This document shows positions 34,438 through 52,015 of a stretch of DNA of 64,000 nucleotides, in pieces; position 1 is the first letter of the stretch, and each line of letters opens with the position of its first letter. The notes under the pieces are model-generated. The model saw nothing but the letters and a program-made list of their open reading frames with translations. It was not told the origin of the DNA and made no database searches. The DNA comes from Desulfurivibrionaceae bacterium (GTDB lineage: Bacteria; Desulfobacterota; Desulfobulbia; Desulfobulbales; UBA5123): contig JAQYVW010000006.1 of NCBI GenBank assembly GCA_030145325.1, forward strand, positions 1 through 64,000, in the 5' to 3' direction. The position numbers and the translations under genes were made by a program.

Positions 34438-37400
34438 ATGAAAAAAGTTGATAATAAAAGGATTACTAGACACATTGGTCTTTCCTACGCCTACACCTAT
34501 ATAAGGCAATGTATAGTATCTGGTAGTTGGTTTCTAAATTTGAACAACCTCCTCTTGGAAGAACTTCCAGAAATTATTAGTGAATGCAAAACGGTTAAGT
34601 GTTTGTTCTTGGGCTCATATTATTATGATGGAAGTATCTATGACATAAAATATGACGAAAAAAATGATGAGTACAGTAATAATTTTACAGAAATTCCAAA
34701 GCAAATAGGGAAATTAACGGGACTGGAAGTACTTTACATTGATAATAATAAAATTGAAAACTTGTCTGGCATCGAGGAGCTCAAAAACTTAAAAAGATTA
34801 AACGCGTCTAGTAATCGAATTTCCAACGTTAAGGAGTTGCAAAGTTTATCTTTTCTTTCAAGTTTAAATTTAAACAATAATAAAATTTCTCATGTTCGAG
34901 ATGTTATCTCAATATCATCATTAAAGCATTTATCCCTTAATAATAATTCGATTGCTAGTGTCCAGGGAATATCAAGCATAACGAATTTGGCTAAGCTGGA
35001 GCTGGCTTACAATAATATTGAAAACTTTATTGATTTTGCTGACGAAAATGGGGAATTCCCAAAAGCCTTGATTTCCATTACTGGAAATAAATTAAATATA
35101 TCGCATGATTACATAACATTTTCACATTCAGTCCTGTCGGCTCAGATAACTAAATGTTTACAAAATTACTTAATACTTAAAAAGAGGATAGGTGAGAATA
35201 AGAAAACTAAAAAACCTTATTTGAATTTAAACAATATGTCCTTAACTGGGTTGCCTATTGAGTTGGGTGAGCTAAAGCATCTAAAGCAACTTTTTATAGG
35301 TTCATGCTACTTTAATGAAGAAACTTGTAGCATTGAAAATGCTTATTCAAAAAACAGAAATAGAATGGCGTCAATTCCAAGAATAATAGGTGAATTGGCA
35401 AACCTAGAAGTTTTGTATGTAGATAATAATCAAATTACATCAGTTGATTTGGTTGGGTATGGAAGTAACATAGTAGAGCTTAATTTAAATTTCAATAAAA
35501 TTAATAAAATAAAATTGGTTGGAAATTTTAAAAAACTAAAAAGGCTTTATTTTTGCAACAACAAGATTGATTCGTTGGGCTGGCTGGAATCTGTTAGTGA
35601 TGTTGAGGTTGTTGATATATCTGAAAACTTAATTGAAGACGTCGAGATAGTAGGTAAATTGAAAAAACTAAAGTCTATTAAGATCTCGTGTAACAAGTTG
35701 AAAAATGTAACTATTGATGGTGTTGATAGTTGCAAAAGTATTGAATTGATGGACTGCAATATACAGAATCTTTCTGTGTGTTCATCTGCAATGCTTAAGG
35801 TAATAAGGTTGGAATTTTCTGAAGTTAGAAATCTTATGCTTGTGGATTTAGAAGAAATAACTGACTTGAATCTAGTTAATATTGGCCTGCGTCGAATACA
35901 TCTTGAAAATCTGCCTGGATTGAAAACTTTAAATATTTCCGAAAACTATATCTCTTCTGTTGAAAATTTGATCGACTTGCCTCGGCTCGCTTCTTTGAAT
36001 GCTAGAGACAACCGGCTGTCAAGCATAAGTAATTTTTTTAAGTTCATTGGAGAGAGCAACAACTTAAAAAAATTATATCTAGCCGGAAATAGAATAAGGG
36101 ACATTGAGCCATCCCTGATAGCTGAATGGAATTGCATAAACACTTTAAGTTCATATGTCGCAGCCCTCTCGAAGGGTGAAGAGAGTAATACGGCTGCAAA
36201 GCTTATTGTAATTGGCAACACTACGGCAGGCAAAACATCCCTCTGTAACTTCCTTGTGGATGGCACCTATCGGCCAGGTCAGGCATCTACGCACGGAATT
36301 AATAATTTAGAGCTTGTGATAGATGATGTAGTCGATGGTGAGGATTTAAATGTTTCTATATGGGATTTCGGTGGGCAGGAGTATTACCATGCAACGCATC
36401 ACCTATTCATGAGTAACAATGCGGTATATGTTCTTGTATGGGAAAAGGATACAAACACAAATGGATTTATTGATGGCGAAATTTCTCTTTCTGGTTCAAA
36501 CGAAAAAACGGTGATAAGTATTGAGCACTTTCACTATGAGTACTGGCTTGATAGGGCAAGAACTTATGCGCCAGGAAGCCCGATAATTTTATCCCAGAAC
36601 AAAATTGACATTCAGAATGTAGAGCCAATCCCTGAGTCAACTTGTCTCGAGTATCAACTAAACACTTCTCATATTTTACCAATAAGCATCCAAGGTGTTT
36701 CGTGCGGTAATGAAAACTATGTGATCAAGTACGAGGATTTCAAGTATAACCTTTTATCTCTTTTGAAAAAATCAGCAACTAAATTTCGAATAGGTAAGTA
36801 TTGGCTGCTTGTCAAAAAATCAATTATTGAGATGCGGAAAAACTTATCATTTATCACATATGATGAGTTTTGCAAAAAATGCTTAAAAATTGACAGTACA
36901 ATGGATCAGCTGGAAATTGAAACTCTTGCAAAGTATCTTCATGAAACTGGTGTTATATTACACTATGTAAATACGGAAAGTCTAAGAAGTGTTGTGTTCA
37001 CGGATCCTGTGTGGGTATGTAAAATTATTTATGAAATTTTAAACAGAGACGTGCTCGATAATGAAGGTGAATTTACAATTAAAGATGTTCGAAAGTCAGT
37101 GACTGGACATAGTTTGTCCAGTCAACTTGTTGGTTTAATGCTTAACTTTGAGCTTGTTTTCAAGGCCCCATATGATAGTCATACTTACATTGCACCTCAG
37201 TATTTATCTGAATCATATGAGATTTATTCACCTATGTACAGAAATGCCATTTCTAATCATATATCAGAATTAACAACAATAGCTTTTGTTTTAAAATTCA
37301 AGAAATTCCTGGCAAAAAGCATAGTTGTTAAGTTTATGTCTCAGTATGGCAAATATGTTGAGGCGCCTACTTTTTGGAAACATGGTATAATCTTCAGGGT

Positions 37401-38208
37401 TGAAAATGTTAATGTATATGTAAAGTTCCTTTTTTTGGAGAGAAAGGTACTTGTATTTTCTAATAATGTTGGCAGCAGAAGCCGGGTTGTTGGGAAGGTG
37501 TATGAGTATTTCAAAGAGTTGTCTGTGAATAACAGAAACCTGTATGTTTCTGTTAATAATTTAGATTTTGTAAATACTGTACAGCTGCAAAAAGATGTCG
37601 AGTCAGGGTATAAAGAAATGCGTTCTGAGGATAATCAGATCTGTTCTGTTGAAGATTTTAAGCATCTTTTTGATAGAAATTTAAGTAGTGATGTCGAGGT
37701 ATTTGTTTCATATGCCAAGACAGATAAGGATTTTTTTGATGTTTTTTACAATAAGTTTACTGAAATAGCAGAGTATTCAGAGGGATTTGAGTTTAATATT
37801 TGGTGTGATAGGGGAATTGATGCAGGTTCGAACTGGCACCAGCAAATTCAAGAAAATTTGCATAAATGCCGTGTGGCAATATTTCTTGTAAGTAATTCTT
37901 TTATGGCTTCTGATTATATAAAAAATGAAGAGTTTAATCGATTTATTGCAAGAATGAGAAATGATAGATGTTTTTTTATTCCGATTTCTTTTGTCCCTTG
38001 CAGGTATACCCAATGGCCTGAGCTAACACAAAAACAATTTTATAAACCAGATGGAGGCAAGTACGGGAAGTCGGAAGTAGAAAATTTTACTTTTTCACAT
38101 CTTGTTGAATTTGATAATAATAGGAAGCCAAAGCCTAATCCATTTATCGATCAATACATCATAGACTTAATTGATAATATCGAAACATTGTTAAGCAAAG
38201 TTCATTAG
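34438..38208 (+). CDS. LRR-ROC-COR-TIR (Roco) protein, putative immune sensor-effector
   Basis: A 1256-aa protein. Residues 30-560 are leucine-rich repeats (LxxLxLxxNxI pattern). A ROC GTPase follows, with P-loop GNTTAGKTS near 590, G3 DFGGQEYYH near 642 and an NKID-type G4 (SQNKID) near 720, and then a COR-like region. Residues about 1084-1240 form a TIR domain (VFVSYAKTDKDFF) with a candidate catalytic Glu in IKNEEFNRF. Roco proteins are GTP-controlled switches, LRRs sense, and TIR domains commonly hydrolyse NAD, so an abortive-infection role is inferred. The gene is far more AT-rich than its neighbours, a sign of transfer. No Shine-Dalgarno is seen at the ATG. Confidence 0.9.
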   Translation: MKKVDNKRITRHIGLSYAYTYIRQCIVSGSWFLNLNNLLLEELPEIISECKTVKCLFLGSYYYDGSIYDIKYDEKNDEYSNNFTEIPKQIGKLTGLEVLYIDNNKIENLSGIEELKNLKRLNASSNRISNVKELQSLSFLSSLNLNNNKISHVRDVISISSLKHLSLNNNSIASVQGISSITNLAKLELAYNNIENFIDFADENGEFPKALISITGNKLNISHDYITFSHSVLSAQITKCLQNYLILKKRIGENKKTKKPYLNLNNMSLTGLPIELGELKHLKQLFIGSCYFNEETCSIENAYSKNRNRMASIPRIIGELANLEVLYVDNNQITSVDLVGYGSNIVELNLNFNKINKIKLVGNFKKLKRLYFCNNKIDSLGWLESVSDVEVVDISENLIEDVEIVGKLKKLKSIKISCNKLKNVTIDGVDSCKSIELMDCNIQNLSVCSSAMLKVIRLEFSEVRNLMLVDLEEITDLNLVNIGLRRIHLENLPGLKTLNISENYISSVENLIDLPRLASLNARDNRLSSISNFFKFIGESNNLKKLYLAGNRIRDIEPSLIAEWNCINTLSSYVAALSKGEESNTAAKLIVIGNTTAGKTSLCNFLVDGTYRPGQASTHGINNLELVIDDVVDGEDLNVSIWDFGGQEYYHATHHLFMSNNAVYVLVWEKDTNTNGFIDGEISLSGSNEKTVISIEHFHYEYWLDRARTYAPGSPIILSQNKIDIQNVEPIPESTCLEYQLNTSHILPISIQGVSCGNENYVIKYEDFKYNLLSLLKKSATKFRIGKYWLLVKKSIIEMRKNLSFITYDEFCKKCLKIDSTMDQLEIETLAKYLHETGVILHYVNTESLRSVVFTDPVWVCKIIYEILNRDVLDNEGEFTIKDVRKSVTGHSLSSQLVGLMLNFELVFKAPYDSHTYIAPQYLSESYEIYSPMYRNAISNHISELTTIAFVLKFKKFLAKSIVVKFMSQYGKYVEAPTFWKHGIIFRVENVNVYVKFLFLERKVLVFSNNVGSRSRVVGKVYEYFKELSVNNRNLYVSVNNLDFVNTVQLQKDVESGYKEMRSEDNQICSVEDFKHLFDRNLSSDVEVFVSYAKTDKDFFDVFYNKFTEIAEYSEGFEFNIWCDRGIDAGSNWHQQIQENLHKCRVAIFLVSNSFMASDYIKNEEFNRFIARMRNDRCFFIPISFVPCRYTQWPELTQKQFYKPDGGKYGKSEVENFTFSHLVEFDNNRKPKPNPFIDQYIIDLIDNIETLLSKVH

Positions 38209-38515: not shown

Positions 38516-41323
38516 TTATTCCAATATCTTGTCGTCTTTGCCGGTTTGGAGTTCTAGTGCGCGGCTCATGAGATCGAATGCACGATCCGTTTCTCCAAGT
38601 TTCTTGAGAATTTCAGACATATTCCGCATTGCCATGATTGTATTGGGGTGTGTCTCGCCCAGTTGGTCTGAAAGATTGGCAAGGGTTTTCTCCATTAAAT
38701 TTCTTGCACCATCGAGATCCCCGAGTTTGCTGAGTACACTTGCAAGGTTGTTCATAGATGTAAGTGTGTCTGGGTGCTTCTCGCCGAGTACCCGGCTCCT
38801 GGCTTCCAGGGTTTTTTTCTGGAGCGCCCTAGCGCCATTGAGGTCGCCCTGTGCCTTGAGGGTACTGGCCAGGTTGTTCATGGATGTAAGTGTGTCTGGG
38901 TGCTCCTCGCCGAGTACCCGGTTCATGATTTCTAGGGTTTTTTCCTGGAGCTCCCTGGCACCATTGAGGTTTCCCTGTGTCTTAAGGGTACTGGCCAGGT
39001 TGTTCATGGATGAGAGTATGTCCGGGTGCTCCTCACCGAGAACCCTGATACTGACTTCTAAGGTTTTTTCGTTGAGCGCCCTGGCACCATTGAGTTCGCC
39101 CTGTGCCATGAGGGTACTGGCCAGGTTGTTCATGGATGCGAGTGTGTTCGGGTGCTCCTCACCGAGTACCCGGTTCCTGACTTCTAAGGTTTTTTCGTTA
39201 AGCGTCCTGGCACCATTGAGTTCGCCCTGTGCCATGAGAATATTGGCCAGGTTGCTCATGGATGAAAGTGTGTCCGGGTGCTCCTCACCGAGTACCCGGT
39301 TCCTGATTTCTAGGGTTTTTTTCTGGAGTGCCCTGGCACCATTGAGTTCGCCCTGTGCCATGAGGGTACTGGCCAGGTTGCTCATGGATGTGAGTGTGCC
39401 CGGGTGCTCCTCACCGAGTACTCGGATACAGATTCCCAGGTTTTTTTCCTGGAGCTCCCTGGCACCATTGAGGTCTCCCTGTGTCTTAAGGGTATTGGCT
39501 AGGTTGCTCATGGATGCAAGTGTGTCCGGGTGCTCCTCACCGAGTACTCGGATACAGATTTTCAGGGTTTTTTCCTGGAGCGCCCTGGCCCCATTGGGTT
39601 CGCCCTGTGCCATGAGGGTACTGGCCAGGTTGTTCATGGATGAGAGTATGTCCGGGTGCTCCTCACCGAGTACCCGGTTCCTGACTTCTAAGGTTTTTTC
39701 GTTGAGCGCCCTGGCACCATTGAGGTCGCCCAGTTCCTTAAGGGTACTGGCCAGGTTGCCCATGGATGAGAGTGTGCTCGGGTGCTCCTCACCGAGTACC
39801 CTGATCCTGATTTCTAGGGTTTTTTTCTGGAGCTCCCTGGCACCATTTAGTTCGCCCTGTGCCATGAGGGTACTGGCCAGGTTGTTCATAGATGTGAGTG
39901 TGGACGGGTGCTCCTTGCCGAAGCAAGATGCAAAATGGCATCGGCTTTCCTCAAGCAAGCGTTTGGCGAGTGAGTAGTCGCCAAACGCATTGCATAGATT
40001 CCCCGCTTTGCCAAGGACTGTGGCGATCTGTGCCGAGTCGGTATCCTTGTTGGTAGATTCCATTAATGATTGGGCAAGGGCGGATGCGGACTGTCGTGCC
40101 TTTGGGTAAGCCGCTTCGACTACGGTTAGGATCGCCTGTGATACGAGGTTGAACATAATTTGCGGAGTCTTATGTTCAATTAATGCATTGGCGGTTCGGA
40201 GAGCTGCTTGAATGTCCCCGTTTTGTGTCGTGGTGGTGACCTTCTCACAGCGTTGCTTGATCTCTGCCTCCAGCCTTACCTCTGCCAGAGATTCCCACGG
40301 CGCTTGTAGTTCGTCCAGTCGCTCCTTGAGGGCTTCGTAGCGACTACTGAGGGAGATGGCTGATCCTCCTTCTTCCAACATTACTGCAATTGGTTCGCCG
40401 TAAGCATAATCCGGTATGTGGTGCAGCATCACCTGATCAAAGTACTCTTTGAGGGTGGTTCTTGAGCGGATATGTATCTCATCGAACAGCCTTTCAAATA
40501 ATGGCTGATACCCCTCTACTCTTTCCGTCAGGGACAAGGAAGGTTCGCTTGGCAAGCCGTGACGCCAGGCCGAGAGCAGTTGAGGTCGCGCCAAGTCGAT
40601 GCGGGAGGGTAGTGGGAAGACGGTGAGGGGGCGACCGTCTGGGGATGCCTTACGGTAGTTGACGGCCTTGTGCACAAGTTCCTTTACTCCGCTTAGGCTC
40701 TGCTGGTTGGGGGTGAAGACCACCACCAGCTTATCGGGTAGTACCATTGTGCAGATGCCGCTTGTGTCGCTCATGCCGGTTCGTGAATCCACCAGGATAT
40801 AATCGAACCGCTGACGCAGGAAATCCGCAAAGCCTGTAAATAGGCCCGGAGCTTTGCGAAACAAATTTTCCCATTGGAATTGAACCACGCGACGGGCATA
40901 GTCACTGTCGAATCGTCCCGCTTTCATGATTGCCAGGCCTTGAACAGAGGTTGGCAAAAGAAAGCGCTCAAGGTCCATGGCCTTCAGCGTCTCGCATACT
41001 TGACGACGGTTGGCGACAAAGTCATGCGGATCGTATTGGGAACGGGTAGCGTTTAAATCCGTTAAGAGATCCAGGCAGCCGGGTGTAACATCGAATCGAT
41101 TTTCAGCTTCCTTGGTGAGATAGGGCCTAAGGTAGCGATGCAGGCCAGGGGCTTCGAAATCCCAATCTATGGCAAGAACGCGTGGTGTTTGGTTGTTGTC
41201 TCTTTCTGAGTCGTTATAGCCCAACAAGCAGGCGATGTTGGCCAGCGCCATGGTCCTGCCCGTACCGCCCTTGTAAGAGTAGAAGGTGATGATCTGGCCG
41301 AGTTTATTTGTATTCATTCGCAT
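38516..41323 (-). CDS. KGGTGRT-variant ParA/MinD-like ATPase fused to TPR repeats
   Basis: About 935 aa. The N-terminus (QIITFYSYKGGTGRTMALAN) holds a deviant Walker A of the ParA/MinD class, KGGTGRT, and a second acidic motif in IDWDFEAPGLHRYL. This combination is known from the TPR protein of FxSxx-COOH gene clusters and from other conflict systems. Residues about 475-930 are eleven 42-residue kinesin-light-chain-like TPR units (consensus RVLGEEHPDTLSSMNNLAS). The start is placed at the ATG at 41323, 5 bases after the TIR gene stop; the frame is open to 41353. Together with the TIR gene it forms a sensor/effector pair, probably recruiting partners via the TPR array. Confidence 0.85.
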   Translation of the reverse strand: MRMNTNKLGQIITFYSYKGGTGRTMALANIACLLGYNDSERDNNQTPRVLAIDWDFEAPGLHRYLRPYLTKEAENRFDVTPGCLDLLTDLNATRSQYDPHDFVANRRQVCETLKAMDLERFLLPTSVQGLAIMKAGRFDSDYARRVVQFQWENLFRKAPGLFTGFADFLRQRFDYILVDSRTGMSDTSGICTMVLPDKLVVVFTPNQQSLSGVKELVHKAVNYRKASPDGRPLTVFPLPSRIDLARPQLLSAWRHGLPSEPSLSLTERVEGYQPLFERLFDEIHIRSRTTLKEYFDQVMLHHIPDYAYGEPIAVMLEEGGSAISLSSRYEALKERLDELQAPWESLAEVRLEAEIKQRCEKVTTTTQNGDIQAALRTANALIEHKTPQIMFNLVSQAILTVVEAAYPKARQSASALAQSLMESTNKDTDSAQIATVLGKAGNLCNAFGDYSLAKRLLEESRCHFASCFGKEHPSTLTSMNNLASTLMAQGELNGARELQKKTLEIRIRVLGEEHPSTLSSMGNLASTLKELGDLNGARALNEKTLEVRNRVLGEEHPDILSSMNNLASTLMAQGEPNGARALQEKTLKICIRVLGEEHPDTLASMSNLANTLKTQGDLNGARELQEKNLGICIRVLGEEHPGTLTSMSNLASTLMAQGELNGARALQKKTLEIRNRVLGEEHPDTLSSMSNLANILMAQGELNGARTLNEKTLEVRNRVLGEEHPNTLASMNNLASTLMAQGELNGARALNEKTLEVSIRVLGEEHPDILSSMNNLASTLKTQGNLNGARELQEKTLEIMNRVLGEEHPDTLTSMNNLASTLKAQGDLNGARALQKKTLEARSRVLGEKHPDTLTSMNNLASVLSKLGDLDGARNLMEKTLANLSDQLGETHPNTIMAMRNMSEILKKLGETDRAFDLMSRALELQTGKDDKILE
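38560..39925 (-). repeat. 126-bp tandem repeats encoding TPR units
   Basis: About eleven head-to-tail copies of a 126-bp unit, each giving one 42-aa TPR, in the 3' half of the ATPase gene. Units are highly similar at the DNA level (for example repeated CTCCTCACCGAGTACCCGG on the plus strand). Copy number could change by slippage or recombination. A long antisense open frame here is a by-product of the repeats. Confidence 0.9.
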
Positions 41324-41327
41324 CAGC

Positions 41328-41957
41328 TTAATGACCAGGCATGGGGGTAACACACATTGGAGCGACGCTTTCCAGCCACGGCCTTATGGATTCCAGAACA
41401 GGAAAATGAAAGTTGCTACAGTCGTCATTTAACATTCCAGCATTTTGTAGGACACGGTAGCGATCAAAAATTTGCTTCGCCAACTCATTAAGTCGGCCTT
41501 GGCAATCCTTTTCTTCGAAGTCGGCTTCCACAGTAATGTGGTCAAAATTTTCGCAAGTTCGATTGGATCTGATTTCCTCCGGCAAGCAGTCGAGACCGCG
41601 AAAGACCACCGGGAAGATTAACCCCTTGTTTCGTAGGTCATCTATCGTCTGTCCCAGGTGATGTTCCTCCAATTTGAGCATCGCTTGGTATTCTAATGCA
41701 CAGTATGGGTTGCATGGATCGAAATGGAGAGGAGAGTAAAACATCACCATGCAAGCACTGCGGCAAAGTTCGAATGCCAACTTTTCGTTGAAATGGTCGC
41801 CGACGTTGAGTCCTTTTTCGTCAAAAAAGACCGGCATGTTCGGCAACCACCACCCCAGTTGTTTCTTGAGTTGTCGCACAAAGGCCAACACGAATTGGTG
41901 AGCATCCGGGTCGCCGGTATGGCGGTAGCTGATAAAGCACGCATTAACATGTTCCAT
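41328..41957 (-). CDS. Stand-alone TIR-domain protein
   Basis: A 209-aa protein that is mostly a TIR domain. Strand A is ACFISYRHTGD, the BB-loop region carries VFFDEKGLNVGDHF, and the candidate catalytic Glu sits in NPYCALEYQAML. A short C-terminal extension follows. It resembles the toll/interleukin-type partner of KGGxGR-ATPase proteins (FxsC-like). The ATPase-TPR gene starts within a few bases of its stop, so the two are an operon pair. Probable NAD-consuming or nucleotide-signal-making effector; the activity is inferred from the fold. Confidence 0.85.
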   Translation of the reverse strand: MEHVNACFISYRHTGDPDAHQFVLAFVRQLKKQLGWWLPNMPVFFDEKGLNVGDHFNEKLAFELCRSACMVMFYSPLHFDPCNPYCALEYQAMLKLEEHHLGQTIDDLRNKGLIFPVVFRGLDCLPEEIRSNRTCENFDHITVEADFEEKDCQGRLNELAKQIFDRYRVLQNAGMLNDDCSNFHFPVLESIRPWLESVAPMCVTPMPGH

Positions 41958-42117: not shown

Positions 42118-43653
42118 TTAATCTTTTGATGCCGAAGGTGCAGTTTTCACCGCTTCCGCAATGGGGCCGAGCAACACCCCCTCGTTTACCTGTTCTGTAA
42201 TTAGGGCGCGATGGTGCACGGCAAAAAGATCCCACTGTCGATTAAAAACTGGTGAACCGGAGCTGCCGCCCTCGGTTGGGCTGCGGTAATGAACATAGGG
42301 CGGATCATAACCGGTAAGGTCGTTGTTGTATATTGATGCCGCCAATTCGCCACCCTTGGGGTGGCCGATGATATAGATTCTCTGTGGCTTTCCGCCGACC
42401 TGCGCCAACGCAGGATTATAAGGCGATGGTTGTAGGGGTGTTGCTCCCTCTGGCGGGTGCTCCATGCGGAGTATGGTTACGTCGAGTTGCGTTCGGGGAG
42501 AGGTGAATAGTAGTTCTCCCAAGGCGGCTTTGGGGCGGCCGGGGAGGCGAGTGAACTCTGCCTCTGCCGTATTCGGGTCAAGTGGGGCCTGATCCGACGG
42601 GTTAACGCTGAGCACATGGGAATTGGTTACAAACACCGGGGCATCACCCCAGTCAGCTCGCAGGCTTGAACCTTGAACAAGAAATCCGGTTCCGTAAGAG
42701 GCGCCGGAGGCTGAGTCAGACATGCGTGCTATCGCTAGGCAACGTTTCTGCAGTGTATCAAACCACTGAAGATGGATGAGTCCCTCGGCACCATACACGG
42801 CCTGAAAACCACTAGGGTCTAGTATCTGAGAGCCGGTCGGTTCAAGAGTGGCTCCTTCGCACTGCAACAGCGCATATTCCAAAACCGGCAGCAGCTTTCC
42901 TCCCTCCGGGGTGTCGTCAAGGCACCACACTTCTTTCATTTGGCGCAGGGTGCTGGCGATTTCGAAGGCATCGGTGTCTGGATGTTTGACATACTTACCC
43001 GTCCATTCCAACGCAGTATCCCAGTCCCCGATGGCCATGGATGCCTCCATGGCTGTTCCGTAATCCCAGACTCCGGTGGCGCCTTTCATTTCTATGTCGT
43101 TGAGGATGGTGCGAGCGATTTCTTGAACATTCAAGTTTATCCCGGTCGCCATACCGTCTTGGTCAGCCCTGGCTAGCAATGCGGCGACGTTGATTCCGTG
43201 CCAGCGGTAATCACCGCGTTGTTCCTGCCAGTCTGGCAGGTAAGCGACTAGTGCCTGTTTGAGATTGTCTGAGCCACCTTCGTTGACGTAGAGTTGTTTG
43301 TACGCACGTCCGATCAGGCCGCGGGTTTCTGGTCCTTCATGCGGGTCATCGGCCACCTCGTTCACTAAATCTTTGAGATCTTGCAATGCTTCGTGGATGA
43401 AGTTTTGATCTAATAATGACTGGGCTCTTTGTCGGCGGATCACTGGTGCCTGGAGGCCGGAATGGATGAAAGAGTCTGCCGTCTGTTTCATCTCGGCAAA
43501 TCGACGTTTACGTCGGAGTAAGCTGAGAATCATTCTGGCTTGGTCATCCCCGAAAGCTCTTGGGTCAATTTGTTGGGTGAGGTGTTGCACATCGGTGTAA
43601 CGGTATTCATTCAAGGCGGCTTTTAGAGTTGGTATGAATTCCTCTGGCTTCAT
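42118..43653 (-). CDS. TPR-S domain plus trypsin-like serine protease
   Basis: A 511-aa protein. Residues 1-270 are helical TPR-S-like repeats, including ETRGLIGRAYKQLY, which is matched by ERQGLIGGRYKKLA in the protein at 44745. The C-terminal half is a trypsin fold with the triad His in NSHVL (about 344), Asp in QLDVTIL (about 391) and Ser in GGSSGSPVF (about 466). The start at 43653 has GAGGAGG upstream and its A is shared with the TAA stop of the hydrolase gene; a longer frame to 43746 is rejected. Such proteases in bacterial conflict loci are thought to cut a partner or a cell target once the sensor is triggered. No signal peptide, so cytoplasmic. Confidence 0.88.
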   Translation of the reverse strand: MKPEEFIPTLKAALNEYRYTDVQHLTQQIDPRAFGDDQARMILSLLRRKRRFAEMKQTADSFIHSGLQAPVIRRQRAQSLLDQNFIHEALQDLKDLVNEVADDPHEGPETRGLIGRAYKQLYVNEGGSDNLKQALVAYLPDWQEQRGDYRWHGINVAALLARADQDGMATGINLNVQEIARTILNDIEMKGATGVWDYGTAMEASMAIGDWDTALEWTGKYVKHPDTDAFEIASTLRQMKEVWCLDDTPEGGKLLPVLEYALLQCEGATLEPTGSQILDPSGFQAVYGAEGLIHLQWFDTLQKRCLAIARMSDSASGASYGTGFLVQGSSLRADWGDAPVFVTNSHVLSVNPSDQAPLDPNTAEAEFTRLPGRPKAALGELLFTSPRTQLDVTILRMEHPPEGATPLQPSPYNPALAQVGGKPQRIYIIGHPKGGELAASIYNNDLTGYDPPYVHYRSPTEGGSSGSPVFNRQWDLFAVHHRALITEQVNEGVLLGPIAEAVKTAPSASKD

Positions 43654-44531
43654 TATGCCTCCTCTCGTTTGCACAGTTGCCGGAGATGCCGACGTAACAG
43701 GGGGCCCTGTAGATATTTGGTGGCTGAGTGTCGCCAGGTGCCCCAATTTCCCTCCTCGATATCAATGACTGTTTTTTGTCCGTTTTTGCGGAAATCGTTG
43801 GCGAGTCTCGGGTCTAGGCCTGCGACTATATCCAAACGGTCATAGACGTTGACCCAGTTCCCCTGAAGTTTTGCTGGGTAACCGTTGCTCCGTGACCAGT
43901 TCAGTCGATCCTGAATTTCGTCCAATCCAAGCGGGCTGCCAAGGGTAAGTAGTCCCGTCATTGGTGGGCAGGCCGGGACATCGGTTAATACGTCATAGGC
44001 GATAAATGATCCTTGGCTATGTCCTACAAGGACGCATTGGCTATCTGGAGGTATGCTGGCGAGCACCCGGTTGCGGATGATGTCCCGGATGCCATTGATG
44101 TTGAAGAGATAATCATGGGTTTCGCGTAGAAAATGTTCCAGCATTCGCTGTTTAATAGGCCAGGGTATAGGTATCCGTTCATAGCTTGGCGTGGTGTCAT
44201 CGACTGGTGCTTCTGGGTATGCTGTCTCATTGTCTGGAAAACGTTTTCGCATGGCCGCAAGCCAAGCGTTTGCACTGAGTGATAATTCTGTGGCTACCGC
44301 TTGTTCGAGTTCATTGGCGCGACTCTCATACTCTGCTGCCAGCAGCGGGGTGTCGTAGAAGAGATCCGCCCAGTAGACAAAAGAGGTGGTGACACCGACT
44401 GCCTCGGGATCAAACCCATTGTCACTATCCACCGGTTTGGCCAAGGCATCCAGCCAGATACGGCGCAGGTCATCGGGGGCTGGTTTGTTCGCCAGTCCAT
44501 GAATGAAGGTGATGTGAACTTTATCGGTCAT
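43653..44531 (-). CDS. Alpha/beta hydrolase (lipase/esterase-like)
   Basis: A 292-aa alpha/beta-hydrolase fold protein. It begins with an oxyanion-type FIHGLANKP strand, has the nucleophile elbow GHSQG near residue 170, and likely Asp and His in DRLDIVAGLD and TWRHSATKYL. No signal peptide. Start at ATG 44531 with AGGCG upstream; the in-frame ATG at 44546 is also possible. The stop overlaps the protease start, so it is tightly linked with the TPR-S/trypsin gene. In defence loci, hydrolases like this can attack membrane lipids, but the substrate here is unknown. Confidence 0.85.
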   Translation of the reverse strand: MTDKVHITFIHGLANKPAPDDLRRIWLDALAKPVDSDNGFDPEAVGVTTSFVYWADLFYDTPLLAAEYESRANELEQAVATELSLSANAWLAAMRKRFPDNETAYPEAPVDDTTPSYERIPIPWPIKQRMLEHFLRETHDYLFNINGIRDIIRNRVLASIPPDSQCVLVGHSQGSFIAYDVLTDVPACPPMTGLLTLGSPLGLDEIQDRLNWSRSNGYPAKLQGNWVNVYDRLDIVAGLDPRLANDFRKNGQKTVIDIEEGNWGTWRHSATKYLQGPLLRRHLRQLCKREEA

Positions 44532-44744
44532 GTTGTCACGCCTCATTTGTTAAGTTGTTCTGTCTTGTTTGTTAGAGAGCTATCAACCTCTGCTGTCCAG
44601 TCTAGTGATCTGTCACGCCGCTTTCGTAATCGTCGCGCGCTTTCCTGGTGAATGTCCAAGATCTTTTTAGGTTGCCTGATCGTTTGTCGAGGCGTTTGGG
44701 GGGCCTATCTTTTGGTGGTTTTGTACTCGGATTTTATCCGGTGA

Positions 44745-46097
44745 CTATAAAAGCGTTCGTAGTTCGGCGAGCAGGGCGGTCAGTTCCCGTTGTGTGGTCG
44801 GGGCTGCGGCCTGGCGTACGCTTCTTTCTAGATCGGCGATGGTGGTGTCTAGTTTCCAGGCTGCCGGGCCTTCCCGGCTTACCTCTTTGGCCCAATGTTT
44901 AGCAGCCGTCGCATCGCCGGCATCAAAGGCCATGCCCAGGAGGGTGGGTTTAAGCCATTCATCTTGTTGATTGTGCTCCTTGGCCCGTTCGCAGGCTAAG
45001 AGGGCGATTCGGGCCGTAAGTGCTGCCTTGTCGGCATCCCCTTCCTCGTTGCGCTCGCGGTAGAGGCGGGGCAGGTTGCAGGTAGGGTAGTAATCGTTCA
45101 GGTCAAGACTCATCCCGCGTTCGTAGTGGTCAATGGCTTGATCCAGGTAGCCTCGGTGGTGTTGCGGGTTGCCCTCCTTCAGGGCCTGGGTGGCAAGTTT
45201 TTTGTAGCGGCCACCGATCAGCCCCTGCCGTTCCGAGCTGTCGCCGCTGCGCTGGATCAATTCCGTAAGGGCGGCAATGGCGGCCAGGTTGTCGCCGGTT
45301 TTGGCTCGGGCGAGACAGCGTTGTTCCTTGATCAACTCAAGTTCCTGGATATCACCGGGCAAGGCATCGATATAGTCGATGGCTTCCTGCCAACCCGCGC
45401 AGTCGCGGAGCAGCATCACCATTTCCAGGGCTACCGACCGGGTCATGGGGACGGTGGCGGGAAGTTCCTCTTGCAGGGCCAAGGCCAGGCGTCGGCCTTG
45501 ATCGCGATCCGGGGAGAGCCGTGCCTCGCGGACTCGGGTCTGGAAGGCGGAAAGGCGGGTGAGTTGTTCCTTGATGGCGTTGGCGCGGTTCGGATCGACC
45601 TTGGCGGGATCCGGGAAGCCGGGGATAACTTGGTAGATGGGCGAGTCGCCTCGGGCAAGTTCGTGGAGCCCGGCCCGCAATGCCGCAGTGATTGCGACTG
45701 CCGAGGCGTCGGTGACAATGCCCTCGGCAAGGGGATAGGTGAGTCGCCGCATCTGATCCACATCAAAGAGGGGGCGAGACCAGTCAGCGCCGATGAGCAC
45801 ACAGCCGTTGCGCTTGCAGGCGTGGCGGATGCCGACCTCGTAGTAAACGTTGCCGTTGGGGATGGTCATGTCGGCAATGACCAGATCCGAGAAGTAGAGG
45901 CGTTCGAGCATCTCATGGATGATCAACGCTCCCACATCCTGATCGGCACGAACCGGTTCATAGCCCAGTTCACTGATGAGTGGTGCCAGAGCCTTGTTCC
46001 ACAGGGCATCAAAGTCAATTTTCTCCGGTGCCTTGGCGACCGGTGGTAGTACCTCCTTGATGCCGAAGGGCATGACCATGAAGCAGACGGGTTTCAT
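44745..46097 (-). CDS. Deoxyribosyltransferase-like (NDT/TIR-like) domain plus TPR-S
   Basis: A 450-aa two-domain protein. The N-terminal 130 residues (CFMVMPFG, then LVIADMTIPNGNVYYEVGIRHA) have the fold signatures of nucleoside 2-deoxyribosyltransferase-like domains that occur in nucleotide-signal and defence systems. Residues 160-450 are TPR-S/TRAFs-binding-type helical repeats, including ERQGLIGGRYKKLA. A GAGGA site precedes the ATG by about 11 bases. It may sense or hydrolyse a nucleotide derivative and pass the signal to the TPR-S protease two genes on; this is an inference. A 213-base gap separates it from the hydrolase gene. Confidence 0.8.
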   Translation of the reverse strand: MKPVCFMVMPFGIKEVLPPVAKAPEKIDFDALWNKALAPLISELGYEPVRADQDVGALIIHEMLERLYFSDLVIADMTIPNGNVYYEVGIRHACKRNGCVLIGADWSRPLFDVDQMRRLTYPLAEGIVTDASAVAITAALRAGLHELARGDSPIYQVIPGFPDPAKVDPNRANAIKEQLTRLSAFQTRVREARLSPDRDQGRRLALALQEELPATVPMTRSVALEMVMLLRDCAGWQEAIDYIDALPGDIQELELIKEQRCLARAKTGDNLAAIAALTELIQRSGDSSERQGLIGGRYKKLATQALKEGNPQHHRGYLDQAIDHYERGMSLDLNDYYPTCNLPRLYRERNEEGDADKAALTARIALLACERAKEHNQQDEWLKPTLLGMAFDAGDATAAKHWAKEVSREGPAAWKLDTTIADLERSVRQAAAPTTQRELTALLAELRTLL

Positions 46098-46163: not shown

Positions 46164-49100
46164 CTAAGGGGCAGGTCGAGTCATTTTTAGTGAGGATAGT
46201 AAGGATAGTATGTAGTCACGAATCCGGCTCTGGTCAGCCCCAAGGTCGGCAGGATCGCAATCATACAGCCAGATGAGATGATGAGTAAGTACTTCGCCAA
46301 CGGTCGGGTCTTCCTGTTTTAATAAGATATTAAACAGGTTCCAGGCAGAGCTTGTCGAATCCGGGTGTTCCTTGCCGAGTATCCTGTTGCTGACTTCCAG
46401 CGTTTTTTCTAGGAGCGTCCTTGCCCCGGCGAGATCGCCCTGTTCTTGGAGAGTTACAGCCAAATTGTCCATGGATTGGAGGGTGTCCGGGTGTTCCTCA
46501 CCGCGTACCCTGATGCTGATTTCCAGTGCTTTTTCCTCAAGCGTCCTTGCCCCGGTGAGATCGCCCTGTGTTTTGAGTGTTAAACCCAGGTTGTTCATGG
46601 CGGTGATGGTGTCCGGGTGTTCCTCGCCGAGTACCCTGATTCTGACTTCCAGCGCTTTTTCCTCAAACGTCCTTGCCTCAGCGAGATCGCCTTGTGCCCG
46701 GAGGGTTGCAGCCAGGTTGTTCATGGCGGTGAGGGTGTCCGGGTGGTCCTCGTCGCGTACCCTGATGCTGACTTCCAGCGCTTTTTCCTGGAGCATCCTT
46801 GCTCCGGTGAGATCGCCAAGTGCTTTGAGGGTTCCAGCCAGATTGTTCATGGCGGCCAGGGTGTCCGGGTGTTCCTCGCCGCGTACCCTGATGCTGACTT
46901 CCAGCGCTTTTTCCTCAAGCGTCCTTGCTCCGGTGAGATCGCCCTGTGCAGAGAGGGTTATAGCCAGGTTGTTCATGGATTTGAGGGTGTCCGGGTGGTC
47001 CTCGCCGAGTACCCTGATGCTGGCTTCCAGCGATATTTTCAGGAGCGTCCTTGCCCCGGCGAGATCGCCCTGTGCTTTGAGTGTTAAACCCAGGTTGTTC
47101 ATGGTGGTGAGGGTTTGCGGGTGTTCTTCGCCAAGGACCCTGATGCTGACTTCCAGCGCTTTTTCCTCAAACGTCCTTGCCCCAGCATGATCGCCCTGTG
47201 CTCTGAGGGTTGCAGCTAGGTTGTTCATAGCGGAGAGGGTGTCCGGGTGTTCCTCGCCGCGTACCCTGGTGTTGACTTCCAGCGCTTTTTCCTCAAACGT
47301 CCTTGCCCCAGCGAGATCGCCCTGTGCGCTGAGGGTATTCGCCAGTTCGCTCATGGATTTGAGGGTGCCCGGGTGTTCCTCGCCGAGAACCCTGGTGCAG
47401 AATTCCACCGTTTTTTCGTTGAGAGCCCTAGCTGTGGAGTAGCTGCCACGAATATAATCATAGTGACCAATGCTTAAGGCAAGAAGAACCGACCAGCTCC
47501 GGTCGTCAGCAGTGTCCTTGTAAAGATGGCGCCCATGTTCCACCTCCCTGGCCAGATCGGCATGGTTGCGGATGTCGGAAACGGAAACTACATCTAATGT
47601 TCCACTGAGCACTTCGATGGCAGCTCTCCTCAGACACTTGACCCGTTCCGGGGCTTGATCGTGGAAGCGTACGGTTCTGGTGATGAGGAGATGGACGGTC
47701 TGGCTTTGTTCGCCGGGGTGGTTTTCGGCCAAGGAGAGTTTGGCGGCCTGGTCAGCGGCAAGCAGGGCACGGGTGTTTGCTTGTTCCTCTGGCTGGTCAT
47801 CCGCCTTGGCAAAGACCCAACTTACCAGGCGGCGAGGTATGGGGGCGGTGGCCAGGCAGGCAGCGAGCCGCAGGTAATCGCGACCCGGTTCGTCCAGAAG
47901 GTCTATGCTCTGCAAAAAGGTAGCGGCGATATTCTTTTTATGGCCGTTGGGTAACTGACTGCCCAGTTGGGCCGCAAGTTCCAAGACGTCGTTATCCTTG
48001 GTATCCAGTTTAGCCAGAAACTCCGAGTATCCCATCTGTTGGGCGGCACCACCGGCAACGTCAACAGCCAGGGCGTGGCGGCCCAACCGGCTGATGGCGA
48101 TCTCACGGGCCAGCTGTTCTTCTTCATCGTTCACAGGGGCTTGGCCCTCGGTTCGGTGGGAGAGGAAAAGTTGCAGGGCCTCATCCGGCTCCAGCACATC
48201 CAGATCCAGGCGGTCTTGCTCGGTACCGTATTTGCGGCTGCGGGTGGTAATAATGGTCTTGCCAAAGGTGTCGGGTGCATGCCAGGCCCGCACCATTTCC
48301 ATGGTTAACTCCGAGGCGAGATCATCCACTACCCAGAGGAAGGGTAGTCCTTTTCCCCGTAATTTTCGTCTAATTTGCCCCTCCAGTTCGGGCAGGGGCA
48401 ACCCCTGCCCGCTGATCTCCAACCGTTGAGCGATGTCGCGGAAGGCGCTCTCTCGGATCATCTCCTGTTCTGCGGCTGTCCTTTTGGTATCATTGGAATC
48501 CTGACCACGGCCACGCAGCCAGAAGATGCCGCCGGGATATGCCGCCCCGAAGCGGAGGGCGTATTCCTCTGTCAGGAGTGATTTGCCCTGGCCACCCATT
48601 CCCGACACCTGGGCCTGGTCAGGATTCCCTGCGCGGCCTGAGATAATGGCATTTTCCCCTTCATGCAACCGGCTGTGTAGATCCCATAGTTCGGGAAGCC
48701 GACCCACGAAACGGCTGCTGCCGCTGATCTGGGCTCCATGTTGTGGTGTAGCGGTGACTGGCAAAATAGCGCCAAGGCAGTCTGTCACTTTAGCGAGGTG
48801 GGTGGCGATGCGGTGGGCTAGCTCGGTCGAGTCCAAGTCGCCGGAGAGAAAACGTTTGTCGCGTAGAGAAAGTGGCTGGATGTGGTCAACTTTATCTTCC
48901 GGGTTTATCACCAGAATTCGGGTAGCCGATCCTCTTGCCTGATCTGCGGCAATGTAAGCTGCGGTCAACTCCATCTGACAGGGTCGGGATTGGGGATAAT
49001 CTTTCGAGTACCAAGCGAGGAATGCCTTCGAACCGGCAAGCCCCTCACTGATTTCTTCGGTTATGGGGGCAAAGTCGTCAATCGCGTCCTCATCGAACCA

Positions 49101-49193
49101 GACCGATAGCCCCAGATCGCGCAGGGCCTGAATCAGGGGTTTGACCCGGTCGCCATCCAGATGATGGTAACTCACGAATAAATCGTAGGACAT
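46164..49193 (-). CDS. TIR-STAND(NB-ARC)-TPR protein, bacterial NLR-like
   Basis: A 1009-aa protein with the architecture of plant and animal NLRs. Residues 1-135 are a TIR domain (YDLFVSYHHLDGD, with Glu75 in CQMELTAAY in the catalytic position). A STAND/NB-ARC ATPase has Walker A GMGGQGKS at about 198-205, Walker B LWVVDDL near 285 and a TTRSRK sensor motif. Nine 42-residue kinesin-light-chain-like TPR units end the protein. The start at 49193 has GAGGAG 8 bases upstream. It follows the small TIR gene by a few bases. Likely a ligand-triggered NAD-depleting effector; the ligand is unknown, with the TPR array the probable sensor. Confidence 0.92.
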   Translation of the reverse strand: MSYDLFVSYHHLDGDRVKPLIQALRDLGLSVWFDEDAIDDFAPITEEISEGLAGSKAFLAWYSKDYPQSRPCQMELTAAYIAADQARGSATRILVINPEDKVDHIQPLSLRDKRFLSGDLDSTELAHRIATHLAKVTDCLGAILPVTATPQHGAQISGSSRFVGRLPELWDLHSRLHEGENAIISGRAGNPDQAQVSGMGGQGKSLLTEEYALRFGAAYPGGIFWLRGRGQDSNDTKRTAAEQEMIRESAFRDIAQRLEISGQGLPLPELEGQIRRKLRGKGLPFLWVVDDLASELTMEMVRAWHAPDTFGKTIITTRSRKYGTEQDRLDLDVLEPDEALQLFLSHRTEGQAPVNDEEEQLAREIAISRLGRHALAVDVAGGAAQQMGYSEFLAKLDTKDNDVLELAAQLGSQLPNGHKKNIAATFLQSIDLLDEPGRDYLRLAACLATAPIPRRLVSWVFAKADDQPEEQANTRALLAADQAAKLSLAENHPGEQSQTVHLLITRTVRFHDQAPERVKCLRRAAIEVLSGTLDVVSVSDIRNHADLAREVEHGRHLYKDTADDRSWSVLLALSIGHYDYIRGSYSTARALNEKTVEFCTRVLGEEHPGTLKSMSELANTLSAQGDLAGARTFEEKALEVNTRVRGEEHPDTLSAMNNLAATLRAQGDHAGARTFEEKALEVSIRVLGEEHPQTLTTMNNLGLTLKAQGDLAGARTLLKISLEASIRVLGEDHPDTLKSMNNLAITLSAQGDLTGARTLEEKALEVSIRVRGEEHPDTLAAMNNLAGTLKALGDLTGARMLQEKALEVSIRVRDEDHPDTLTAMNNLAATLRAQGDLAEARTFEEKALEVRIRVLGEEHPDTITAMNNLGLTLKTQGDLTGARTLEEKALEISIRVRGEEHPDTLQSMDNLAVTLQEQGDLAGARTLLEKTLEVSNRILGKEHPDSTSSAWNLFNILLKQEDPTVGEVLTHHLIWLYDCDPADLGADQSRIRDYILSLLSSLKMTRPAP
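46320..47440 (-). repeat. 126-bp tandem repeats encoding TPR units (TIR-STAND gene)
   Basis: About nine tandem copies of a 126-bp unit. The encoded consensus (RVLGEEHPDTL, MNNLA, AQGDLAGAR) is nearly the same as in the array at 38560-39925, 7 kb away on the same strand, which points to a recent common source or gene conversion between the two genes. Confidence 0.9.
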
Positions 49194-49217: not shown

Positions 49218-49718
49218 TTAGCGATTCTTGCTGGCCTCCTCGATGGCCTTTGGCAATGTTTCATGGCCCCACTTAAAGCTCTTACAACCATTTTCAGTCA
49301 GCGCCCGTGGCAATATCTTGGGAGGAGAATCACCCTTGTAGACCCCGATCACCCCTTTGCCCCGCTTCAGACTCTCTTCGATCTCCCAGTTGACCCACTG
49401 ACTTTTCGCGCTATGCTCGCTAAGGTAAACGGCTGTTACCGAGGCCCTGTCGATCTTCTCCCGAATCTGGCGCTTGATGTAATCGGCGTTAGTGCTGTCG
49501 AATGCGTCTTTAACCGAGTGATCGTCAAAATTCAGCGGCGTCTTATCGTTCTTTGCCTGGCCGCGTAAGAGGTTCACCTCGTTGAGATCTTCGTAAGCAA
49601 AGCTGATGAAAACATGTCGGCTTGTGTCGGTGGCAGCGCTGGTAAGCTTTTTCTTGGCACTTTCTTCCAGACGCGTAAGGTCGGCATGTGAAATTCCTCC
49701 TCCCGAGTGTCCGCCCAT
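49218..49718 (-). CDS. ThsB-like (DUF1863) TIR protein with Gly-rich N-terminus
   Basis: A 166-aa protein. Residues 34-130 are a MTH538/DUF1863-type TIR fold (RHVFISFAYED, then SQWVNWEIEESLKRGKGVIGVY with the likely catalytic Glu112), the class that includes ThsB of Thoeris, which makes a cyclic ADP-ribose signal from NAD. The start is ATG 49718: GAGGAGGGG lies directly upstream and the QueC stop is 1 base before it. This gives the unusual N-terminus MGGHSGGGISHADLTR. A longer frame to 49790 overlaps QueC and is rejected. Coupling to QueC and the Gly-rich end make it a candidate substrate of the QueC-like enzyme. Confidence 0.85.
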   Translation of the reverse strand: MGGHSGGGISHADLTRLEESAKKKLTSAATDTSRHVFISFAYEDLNEVNLLRGQAKNDKTPLNFDDHSVKDAFDSTNADYIKRQIREKIDRASVTAVYLSEHSAKSQWVNWEIEESLKRGKGVIGVYKGDSPPKILPRALTENGCKSFKWGHETLPKAIEEASKNR

Positions 49719-49719
49719 A

Positions 49720-50313
49720 TCACCCCTCCTCGTCATTGACGAATTCAAGACATGAAATGCACCGGCCGCAGGGTTGCGCGGTGCCGGCATGACAGGAGTA
49801 CGTCCCTTCGATTCCTTTTTTCCGAGCCAGCCTCAACACATCGGCCTTGCTGAATTCCGATAGCGGTGTAAGCACTTTGATCGGTTTGGCGAGAGCAGTC
49901 TGGATGGTGGATTCCGCCTGCCTGATGAAGTCGTTGCGCTGGTCGGGAAAGAGGCTGAATCGCTCGGCAAGGAGGCCGATTGCCACCCCGTCCGCCTCCA
50001 CCTGATGGGCGTATGCGCTGCCCATTAGAAGGAACAAGAGGTTGCGGCCAGGGGTGAACGCGTGAGTCTTGACGTCCAAATCTGGCGTGGTAAGGCCGGA
50101 GCGAATCACCTGGCCGAATCCGGAGAGATCCATCCTGGTGGGGTTGGGCAGGTCAAGACGATCATGAACACGCTGACAACTCTCCCATTCCTGTGTGGCG
50201 GCGCGTTGTCCGTAGTCAATGAACAAGGGGAATACCTCGGCACCTTCTTCTCGGGCCATTACGCCAACCAAGGTAGAATCAAGGCCTCCTGAGACCAGGT
50301 TCACCAGGCTCAT
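49720..50313 (-). CDS. QueC-like 7-cyano-7-deazaguanine synthase family protein
   Basis: A 197-aa PP-loop ATPase. SGGLDST (residues 8-14) is the ATP-pyrophosphatase loop, and Cys174, Cys182, Cys185 and Cys188 make the QueC zinc site. It starts inside the stop of the OGG-like gene (ATGA overlap, 50310-50313). True QueC turns carboxydeazaguanine into preQ0. In the company of TGT- and OGG-like genes, as in type IV CBASS, QueC-like proteins serve immunity rather than tRNA modification, and recent work (recalled, not checked) reports that they attach a deazaguanine to a protein N-terminus. No other queuosine pathway genes lie nearby, which favours the immune role. Confidence 0.88.
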   Translation of the reverse strand: MSLVNLVSGGLDSTLVGVMAREEGAEVFPLFIDYGQRAATQEWESCQRVHDRLDLPNPTRMDLSGFGQVIRSGLTTPDLDVKTHAFTPGRNLLFLLMGSAYAHQVEADGVAIGLLAERFSLFPDQRNDFIRQAESTIQTALAKPIKVLTPLSEFSKADVLRLARKKGIEGTYSCHAGTAQPCGRCISCLEFVNDEEG

Positions 50314-51026
50314 ATCAACGCTTCTCTTTTGGCCACGCGCATTGTTACCCACATGGCCAGATCTAGGCTGCCCACTGCATGGCCGAATTCTGTTGCCAAT
50401 CGTTGGAATTCATCTTCGATACGCTCATAGCCAGACAGCCGCGACAAGGTGCCGGGCCGGGGGGCAATACCGCGTGCCATACGCAGGTAGTCGAGGACAT
50501 GGGTGTCGAGTACCGCAAGCTCTGAACAGAAGCCGATCCGTCTCAAAAAGAGACTCGCCTGTTTCGGGCCGAAGCCCCAGACCATCTTGATTAATATTTT
50601 GCGTGCATCACGAGCCGAAGGGGCAGAGGAAAGGATTCGATGTAGCGATGTTCCTTGTTCGCGCATCGTGGCTACGGTTTTGGCAAGTAAAGAGGCAAGG
50701 CGGTTCTTGAAACGCGGTCTCATGGTTCGTTTTTTGCCGTTCACCTTCACTGTCAGGGGGGTAGAAAACGAGGCTACTAACTTTGTTTCATAAACCGATT
50801 GCCAGTTGTCGCCATACTGATCATGCCGTAACAATCCTTGTTGTCGAAGTCGTTCCGCCGTTGCCACCGAAACCTCGTAAATCATTTGGCTGCCGAAAAT
50901 ACAAGTTGCCGCTTCTTGTAGTAATTCTTCTTCAGTTAGTCGGTGCCACGCAGTGTCCGGGCTGCTGGTTGCTTCGGCCTCGGAACAGAGTTCTTTTATT
51001 GTTTGGTTAATCAGCGCGAGCGTCAT
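50310..51026 (-). CDS. OGG/HhH-GPD-like DNA glycosylase
   Basis: A 238-aa helix-hairpin-helix glycosylase-like protein. The HhH hairpin with the candidate catalytic Lys is in VWGFGPKQASLFLRRIG, and the conserved Asp follows in AVLDTHVLDYL, as in 8-oxoguanine glycosylases of the OGG2/AGOG type. The start at 51026 overlaps the TGT-like stop (ATGA) and has GGAAGGAG upstream; a longer frame to 51098 is not supported. Its place between TGT- and QueC-like genes mirrors the accessory set of type IV CBASS. It may bind or remove a deazaguanine-like base rather than act in ordinary base excision repair. Confidence 0.85.
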   Translation of the reverse strand: MTLALINQTIKELCSEAEATSSPDTAWHRLTEEELLQEAATCIFGSQMIYEVSVATAERLRQQGLLRHDQYGDNWQSVYETKLVASFSTPLTVKVNGKKRTMRPRFKNRLASLLAKTVATMREQGTSLHRILSSAPSARDARKILIKMVWGFGPKQASLFLRRIGFCSELAVLDTHVLDYLRMARGIAPRPGTLSRLSGYERIEDEFQRLATEFGHAVGSLDLAMWVTMRVAKREALI

Positions 51027-52015
51027 ACGGATGACTCCTTCCAGCCCAATGCTTCGGTGCAGTGGGCGAAGATGCGTGGTTGGAAATTGGCACGGCAAAA
51101 TTTAACGCCATTGCCGTGATGAATGTCGCTTCGCAGCCGGGCAAGCCAGTCGGTATAGAAGTCAAGGTTGTGGGCGAGGGTGCTGGTCTGGAAGCCGACC
51201 CCCATCTCGTCCCATTTGGATTGGGCTTTGAAAAAATCCACTTGGGTAGAATGGAACAGAAAACCTGTCTCGTAGTCAACGACTGTTTGGCACCACTCCA
51301 ACCCATCGTAGCTGTCGGCACCGGCAAGGGAGTAGATTGCGATGGAAAGTGGATTGCCGGTCCCCAAGAGGTGGAGACCGACGTATCGCCCCAGGTTGTT
51401 CAATGACTGGCGGATAGCCTTGACAGTCTGCGCCCGTGCAAAGATCCCATCCCCCAATCGACGTTCGGGTACTGCGAGCATGGCAACACCGGAAATTTCC
51501 GCAACCTCACGACAAAGGGACGGTAAGTCGTCGGGTGCCCCGTGGATGATTGGAATGAGCGTTGTTGAGGTGGCAACCGCCTGGTCTTTTCCCCACCGCT
51601 CAATTACGAGTTTCACATGTGCATCGTGGTTGTCTGGGGGTGATTGTTCGTCGAAACAGAAGGCGAGCGAGCTGGGAAATTGTTGTAAGGTCCGGTGGAA
51701 ATGGTCTTGTTGCCAAGCGGCTTGAGTATTGTGCCAGTAGCTCTCGTAGTTGCCTGAATCCATCAGCACTATATTGCCGGCATCGGTAGCCTTGTGAAGT
51801 AGGGCAAGGATCATTTCCTGATCGGCTTCTTCAGCGTGCGCAAGATCATAAGCGGAAACAAGGAATTGCTTGTTCTGGGCAGTGAGAGCAGCCAGCAGTT
51901 TTATGTACTCCACTGGTGGGAGGTTGGTTTTGATTGAGGATACAGAAGGAAAAAAAATTGGCAGGTCGAGGTCGACATTGCCAAGTGAAAGTCGTTTCGG
52001 ACGGGGTGCGGACAT
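51023..52015 (-). CDS. TGT-like (tRNA-guanine transglycosylase family) protein
   Basis: A 330-aa TIM-barrel protein of the TGT/DpdA superfamily. The base-binding Asp86 is in LMDSGNYESYW, a second acidic motif is CFDEQSPP, and the nucleophile-type Asp is in ADSYDGLEWC after HLLGTGNPLS. The C-terminal CxCxxC zinc site of true tRNA transglycosylases is absent, as in DNA- or protein-directed relatives. AAAGGA precedes the ATG at 52015. It is the first gene of the minus-strand defence operon, ATGA-coupled to the OGG-like gene. The function is probably recognition or exchange of a deazaguanine on a non-tRNA target. Confidence 0.85.
   Translation of the reverse strand: MSAPRPKRLSLGNVDLDLPIFFPSVSSIKTNLPPVEYIKLLAALTAQNKQFLVSAYDLAHAEEADQEMILALLHKATDAGNIVLMDSGNYESYWHNTQAAWQQDHFHRTLQQFPSSLAFCFDEQSPPDNHDAHVKLVIERWGKDQAVATSTTLIPIIHGAPDDLPSLCREVAEISGVAMLAVPERRLGDGIFARAQTVKAIRQSLNNLGRYVGLHLLGTGNPLSIAIYSLAGADSYDGLEWCQTVVDYETGFLFHSTQVDFFKAQSKWDEMGVGFQTSTLAHNLDFYTDWLARLRSDIHHGNGVKFCRANFQPRIFAHCTEALGWKESSV

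Follow-up and report, generated by a model that had tools for sequence, protein, structure and literature searches.

Two described bacterial defence systems rely on QueC-family enzymes, type IV CBASS and qatABCD, and these are the only ones named in a 2026 survey of the QueC family (PMC13329287). Type IV CBASS carries cap9-11 (PMC10002423), which encode a QueC (Cap9), a TGT (Cap10) and an OGG (Cap11) protein that accompany a CD-NTase and an effector. Cap9 joins 7-carboxy-7-deazaguanine to the glycine that removal of Met exposes in the MGGS motif of the CD-NTase, and a G2D substitution in this motif blocks both modification and defence (PMC13279940). Cap10 binds the modified CD-NTase N-terminus (PMC11996544). 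In qatABCD, the glycine of the QatB MGTS motif and the QatB tail are likewise essential (PMC13279940). PubMed Central full text yielded no QueC-based defence beyond these two systems, nor any account of the gene set described below, which to the preliminary description looked like an undescribed defence type; an earlier mention elsewhere is possible.

A four-gene operon of TGT-like, OGG-like, QueC-like and TIR proteins

The window, by which we mean the whole 64,000-nucleotide stretch that was analyzed (contig JAQYVW010000006.1 of a Desulfurivibrionaceae bacterium), contains a four-gene operon on the minus strand, 52015-49218, with the following features:

52015-51023, minus strand: TGT-like protein, 330 aa, Cap10-like putative reader of the modified tail (Pfam, PDB, AlphaFold)
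51026-50310, minus strand: OGG-like HhH glycosylase, 238 aa, Cap11-like (Ogg-HhH)
50313-49720, minus strand: QueC-like ligase, 197 aa, Cap9-like (Pfam QueC, PDB, tree, motifs)
49718-49218, minus strand: ThsB-like TIR protein, 166 aa, presumed deazaguanylation substrate and core enzyme (ThsB_TIR)
49695-49718, minus strand: codons of the MGGHSGGG tail of the TIR protein, Gly2 being the presumed acceptor after Met1 removal

As the preliminary description had stated, the four genes are coupled: the OGG-like start overlaps the TGT stop (ATGA), the QueC-like start lies in a second ATGA overlap, and a 1-nt gap separates the QueC TGA from the TIR start. A longer listed reading frame for the TIR protein starts at 49790, inside QueC; we took 49718 as the start because it fits both the operon and its relatives. 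Read from there, MGGHSGGGISHADLTRLEESAKKKL precedes the TIR domain. Promoter and terminator matches at the operon were at chance level only.

Pfam domain matches back the identities first assigned to all four proteins, with E-values of 1.1e-41 for QueC, 5.7e-22 for ThsB_TIR, 2.5e-21 for Ogg-HhH and 6e-6 for TGT, the last just short of Pfam's cut-off. The PADLOC TGT and QueC models also match the operon proteins (1e-25 and 4e-26, about 88-90 bits), whereas a true type IV CBASS set scores 330 and 242 bits with the same models. The operon thus has the QueC-, TGT- and OGG-like ancillary proteins of type IV CBASS, at scores well below those of true members.

The nucleobase proteins are related to, and distinct from, those of type IV CBASS

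Cap10 (9ntn, 8.6e-7) is the sole PDB sequence match of the window's TGT-like protein. A 50-row profile of the TGT family matched Cap10 at 7.4e-19; the next match was an archaeal TGT (2e-4), and bacterial TGTs were not matched. In an alignment with the host's own TGT, the catalytic Asp86 and Asp237 are matched and invariant, and, as in Cap10, a deletion has taken out the zinc cysteines; the absence of these CxCxxC ligands bears out the earlier claim that the tRNA zinc site is lacking. The AlphaFold model (pLDDT of 95) has the TGT/Cap10 fold, and a fold search with it returned similar E-values and TM-scores for Cap10 and tRNA TGT. Its sequence profile, nearer to Cap10 than to tRNA TGT, and the lost zinc site place the protein in the Cap10 subfamily. 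The OGG-like protein keeps its catalytic Lys155 and Asp174, and the motifs GPKQAS and LDxHV are conserved in 80 related loci.

Across 83 loci, SGGxDS, FPDQ, RN and CH...CGxCxxC (four Cys) are near-invariant in the QueC-like protein, which therefore retains the aromatic-P-D base-binding motif together with the ATP and Zn motifs. It thus has the ATP-, Zn- and deazaguanine-binding residues of QueC-dependent N-terminal protein modification (NDG mechanism). FPDQ stands where Cap9 has YxDC. Against the PDB, the protein matched QueC at 4e-22 and Cap9 at 1e-13, and it is 31% identical to the Cap9 of L002, a true type IV CBASS locus. In a phylogenetic tree, 42 QueCs of TIR operons form one clade (support 99/95) apart from Cap9 and from genomic QueC. 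Both the QueC and the TGT of the operon are only remotely related to Cap9 and Cap10. Given this distance, and the stronger match of the QueC to canonical QueC than to Cap9, the base that is joined could be a different one.

Canonical QueC, TGT and QueD genes are present on other contigs of the host. Those of the operon are therefore additional copies, and the host has at least part of the deazaguanine pathway. The operon enzymes share folds and core catalytic residues with the QueC and Tgt of queuosine synthesis; they differ from them as second copies beside housekeeping genes, with a TGT that has lost its zinc site and a QueC that is shorter and belongs to a separate clade.

The TIR protein carries an MGG tail like that of type IV CBASS CD-NTases

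The decisive feature, missed by the earlier reader, is the N-terminal tail of the TIR protein. In 81 of 83 loci, the TIR encoded after QueC starts with MGG and a Gly/Ser-rich tail; one MAG and one broken gene depart from this pattern. Because our choice of TIR starts favored MGG, the identical procedure was run on QueC and OGG starts as a control; it gave MGG in none of 81 QueCs after OGG and none of 84 OGGs after TGT. Of 871 neighboring open reading frames, 12 start with MGG, including one operon TIR and one CBASS CD-NTase. MGG is missing from every other ThsB-like TIR in the loci, the one listed for L050 being the operon TIR itself. The MGG-tailed CD-NTases of three true type IV CBASS loci begin MGGSGGGYYGGG (L002), MGGSGGGFFSNSDITKELREAEAQ (L095) and MGGGGGKSSG (L121), to which operon TIR tails, such as MGGSSGGGLFSSDIKSLEDKVKQRL in L020, bear a close likeness. 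The tail is a low-confidence region of the structure model, and the operon thus has a partner with the N-terminal glycine motif and flexible tail of the NDG mechanism. In the TIR domain, the catalytic Glu112 is invariant (53 aligned rows), and the structures nearest to the model are the Bacillus cereus TIR 8fz9 and ThsB.

The TIR protein occupies the position of the CD-NTase and bears its MGG tail, which makes it the most likely core enzyme to be modified. We consider it likely from these sequence comparisons that the TIR takes the place of the CD-NTase as the deazaguanylated immune enzyme of a conserved defence-type operon. A different chemistry would be implied if the QueC-like enzyme conjugated something other than a deazaguanine, as is suspected for QatC, or if the TGT- and OGG-like proteins transferred and excised deazaguanine in nucleic acid, with the TIR responding as effector to phage nucleic acid that bears the base. 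The chemistry of QatC is itself unsettled (PMC13279940), and both catalytic Asp residues of the TGT and the catalytic Lys and Asp of the OGG are kept, which favors such a scheme. However, the aromatic and Asp base-recognition motif that QatC has lost is present in the operon QueC, and the nucleic-acid version leaves the invariant MGG tail unexplained and sits poorly with a TGT whose zinc knuckle is gone, as in Cap10. We regard this explanation, in either form, as unlikely.

The operon and its host genome lack a detectable CD-NTase

Cyclase models matched none of the operon and island proteins scanned. The SMODS profile (PF18144) found nothing in the whole host genome (97.8% complete), although it rang in control genomes, and SMODS was not found in 41 of 50 genomes bearing a related operon; these results hold for CD-NTases as covered by PF18144, other nucleotidyltransferases lying outside its coverage. 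The earlier claim that the set has no CD-NTase thus stands, and the CD-NTase of type IV CBASS is absent from both operon and genome by this search.

TIR domains are known CBASS effectors. The locus could accordingly be read as a cryptic type IV CBASS in which the TIR is an ordinary effector and the CD-NTase lies elsewhere or has been lost, all the more as the nucleobase module is identical in kind. The absence of SMODS from the host and most carrier genomes, the MGG-tailed TIR that stands where the CD-NTase would and the separate QueC clade all speak against this, and we reject it as largely refuted and highly improbable. The preliminary description had proposed that the nucleobase set is re-used with a TIR effector; the re-use of the set without a CD-NTase is upheld, but the TIR is probably more than an effector that the set serves. 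The operon cannot be counted as CBASS, having no CD-NTase, but by its sequence features it probably works like the nucleobase branch of CBASS.

Comparison with type IV CBASS, qatABCD and Thoeris

In common with type IV CBASS, the operon has the QueC/TGT/OGG module, a TGT lacking the zinc site and an MGG N-terminal tail on the core enzyme, and many TIR loci, like L121, have a 2TM-type protein adjoining the operon. In L121, a small 2TM-like protein (3037-3543, minus strand) is encoded upstream of Cap9, parallel to the placement of SLATT upstream of TGT in TIR loci. The differences are that the core enzyme is a ThsB-like TIR rather than a CD-NTase, that the gene order is TGT-OGG-QueC-TIR as opposed to QueC-Cap10-CdnD in the three comparators, that the QueC forms its own clade and that OGG is near-universal in TIR operons and not seen in the three comparators.

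The likeness to qatABCD consists of a QueC-family enzyme and a partner with an N-terminal Met-Gly and a long disordered tail. QatC, however, is larger and has lost the aromatic/Asp base-recognition pair, QatB is not a TIR protein, and a KAP ATPase and a TatD nuclease stand in place of TGT and OGG. The QatC model matched the operon at an E-value of only 0.0099, and there is no KAP or TatD gene beside the window operon. The operon shares with Thoeris (ThsB TIR and ThsA) a ThsB-type TIR with its catalytic Glu, possibly a maker of an NAD-derived signal. Known Thoeris, in contrast, has neither the nucleobase module nor the MGG tail, and no ThsA partner (Sir2/SLOG or TM-Macro) was found among the neighboring window proteins scanned.

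The operon is conserved across many phyla

Scans recovered 85 related loci from many phyla. A search with a four-row TGT alignment over one genome per species, which picked loci by TGT alone and not by OGG, QueC or TIR, gave 79 loci in Pseudomonadota, Acidobacteriota, Planctomycetota, Nitrospirota, Chlorobiota, Bacteroidota, Bacillota, Gemmatimonadota, Thermodesulfobacteriota, Latescibacterota, Poribacteria, Methylomirabilota and a contig binned as archaeal; many of these loci are metagenome bins, and single taxon assignments may be wrong. The alignment scan also found the operon on one contig of a viral collection (L087); neither scanning viral contigs with a single sequence nor tblastn of phages gave a match. 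By tblastn of plasmids, 13 rhizobial plasmids carry a related operon; in those inspected, the first gene encodes a TGT with a TIR fused to its N-terminus, and OGG, QueC and TIR come after it. One such locus lies on the Agrobacterium Ti plasmid pTiCFBP4996 (L006), and several Rhizobium plasmids with the operon are typed conjugative.

The order TGT-OGG-QueC-TIR holds in nearly all loci not truncated by contig ends; L010 and L029 are without OGG, and L050 and L075 have frame lesions. Dozens of loci from many phyla repeat this gene set and order, which places the association far beyond chance. Of 395 sampled genomes of the host phylum, two carry the set, the genome of the window among them, and one carries type IV CBASS; in the plasmid sample, the TIR operon occurs on 13 plasmids and type IV CBASS on one. 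In this sample, the TIR operon is no rarer than type IV CBASS.

In 40 of 41 TIR-TGT fusions, the fused TIR retains a catalytic Glu of its own. According to a quick TGT tree, which has long outgroup branches and was used solely for this point, the TIR-TGT fusion was gained (or lost) once. L030, L032 and L038 have a second, separate ThsB-like TIR gene flanked by SLATT and TGT, an arrangement from which the fusion may have arisen.

Neighboring genes supply candidate effectors

In most loci, the operon is accompanied by a SLATT 2TM effector or a TPR-S protein. In 57 of 84 loci, a SLATT gene (Pfam 'SMODS and SLOG-associating 2TM effector') is no more than 4 kb away, and it often immediately precedes TGT; a TPR-S/TRAFs-binding protein cluster is found in 42 loci, the window included. 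The window has no SLATT neighbor, and its effector is therefore uncertain. Downstream of the operon, the following genes are present:

46164-49193, minus strand: TIR-NB-ARC-TPR (STAND) protein (Pfam TIR_2, NB-ARC, TPR), not a conserved member
44745-46097, minus strand: TPR-S/TRAFs-binding protein, recurrent partner (family profile E-value of 4.7e-109; TPR-S 2.5e-17)
43653-44546, minus strand: alpha/beta hydrolase, paired with the protease beside the operon in L065, L069, L071 and L072
42118-43746, minus strand: trypsin-like protease with TPR-S, recurring in the same four loci

The ATG of the TIR-NB-ARC-TPR gene, at 49193, lies 24 nt past the TIR stop, so the transcription unit may exceed four genes. 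Other TIR-type immune genes occur nearby. An LRR-Roc-COR-TIR protein of 1256 aa (34438-38208, plus strand) is encoded in a low-GC stretch (0.37-0.42, compared with about 0.52-0.57 around it). Within 38516-41957, a further TIR gene (41957-41328, minus strand) overlaps a gene for a TPR-repeat protein (41353-38516, minus strand), and the two are likely a separate two-gene TIR/TPR unit.

In 37 loci of the fusion clade (L003-L007, L046-L087), a PfkB-like gene, whose Pfam match is confined to the C-terminal kinase part, lies directly upstream of the TIR-TGT fusion. These genes may be related to the published PfkB-linked QueC cluster 4, which has been called purine salvage (PMC13329287); the cluster 4 motif CH(x)5CxxCxGCxK has no exact match in the window's QueC. 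Such neighbors would suit a metabolic operon for nucleobase salvage or tRNA modification, in which the TIR domain is incidental. Yet hosts keep a separate canonical QueC and TGT, the TGT of the operon is without its zinc site, the catalytic Glu of the TIR is invariant, and the neighbors are otherwise SLATT, TIR, TPR-S and HsdM genes, type I methylase (HsdM-like) genes being nearby in 19 loci. We give a metabolic role very little credence.

A proposed mechanism for TIR deazaguanylation

By homology with type IV CBASS, the deazaguanylated TIR would arise as follows. After removal of Met1, the QueC-like enzyme would use ATP to join 7-carboxy-7-deazaguanine, supplied by the host's queuosine pathway, to Gly2 in the disordered MGG tail of the TIR, and the TGT-like protein without a zinc site would bind the base-tagged tail, as Cap10 does. 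The later steps are more tentative. The tag may arm the TIR or hold it until infection, whereupon the TIR might consume NAD+ or make a nucleotide signal. A partner could then perform the toxic step, and the gene neighborhoods make the effector more likely to be a SLATT 2TM protein, or a TPR-S or second-TIR protein such as the TIR fused to TGT. The OGG-like glycosylase would probably bind or clip the deazaguanine base, or else sense nucleic acid. The model predicts a Gly2 adduct, binding by the TGT-like protein and loss of function in a G2D variant.

We also lean toward a broader reading, namely that N-terminal deazaguanylation is a portable immune tag. The QueC/TGT/OGG module would be joined to either a CD-NTase or a TIR, enzymes that share only a grafted MGG tail; the TIR version would be a cyclic-nucleotide-independent system that spans many phyla, and in one large clade its tag reader would be fused to a TIR. 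The operon suggests a branch of bacterial antiviral immunity that has not been described before. If this is correct, protein deazaguanylation, shown in one immune system and suspected in a second, would extend to TIR enzymes, and the MGG tail would be a transferable tag through which the same nucleobase machinery controls unrelated immune enzymes.
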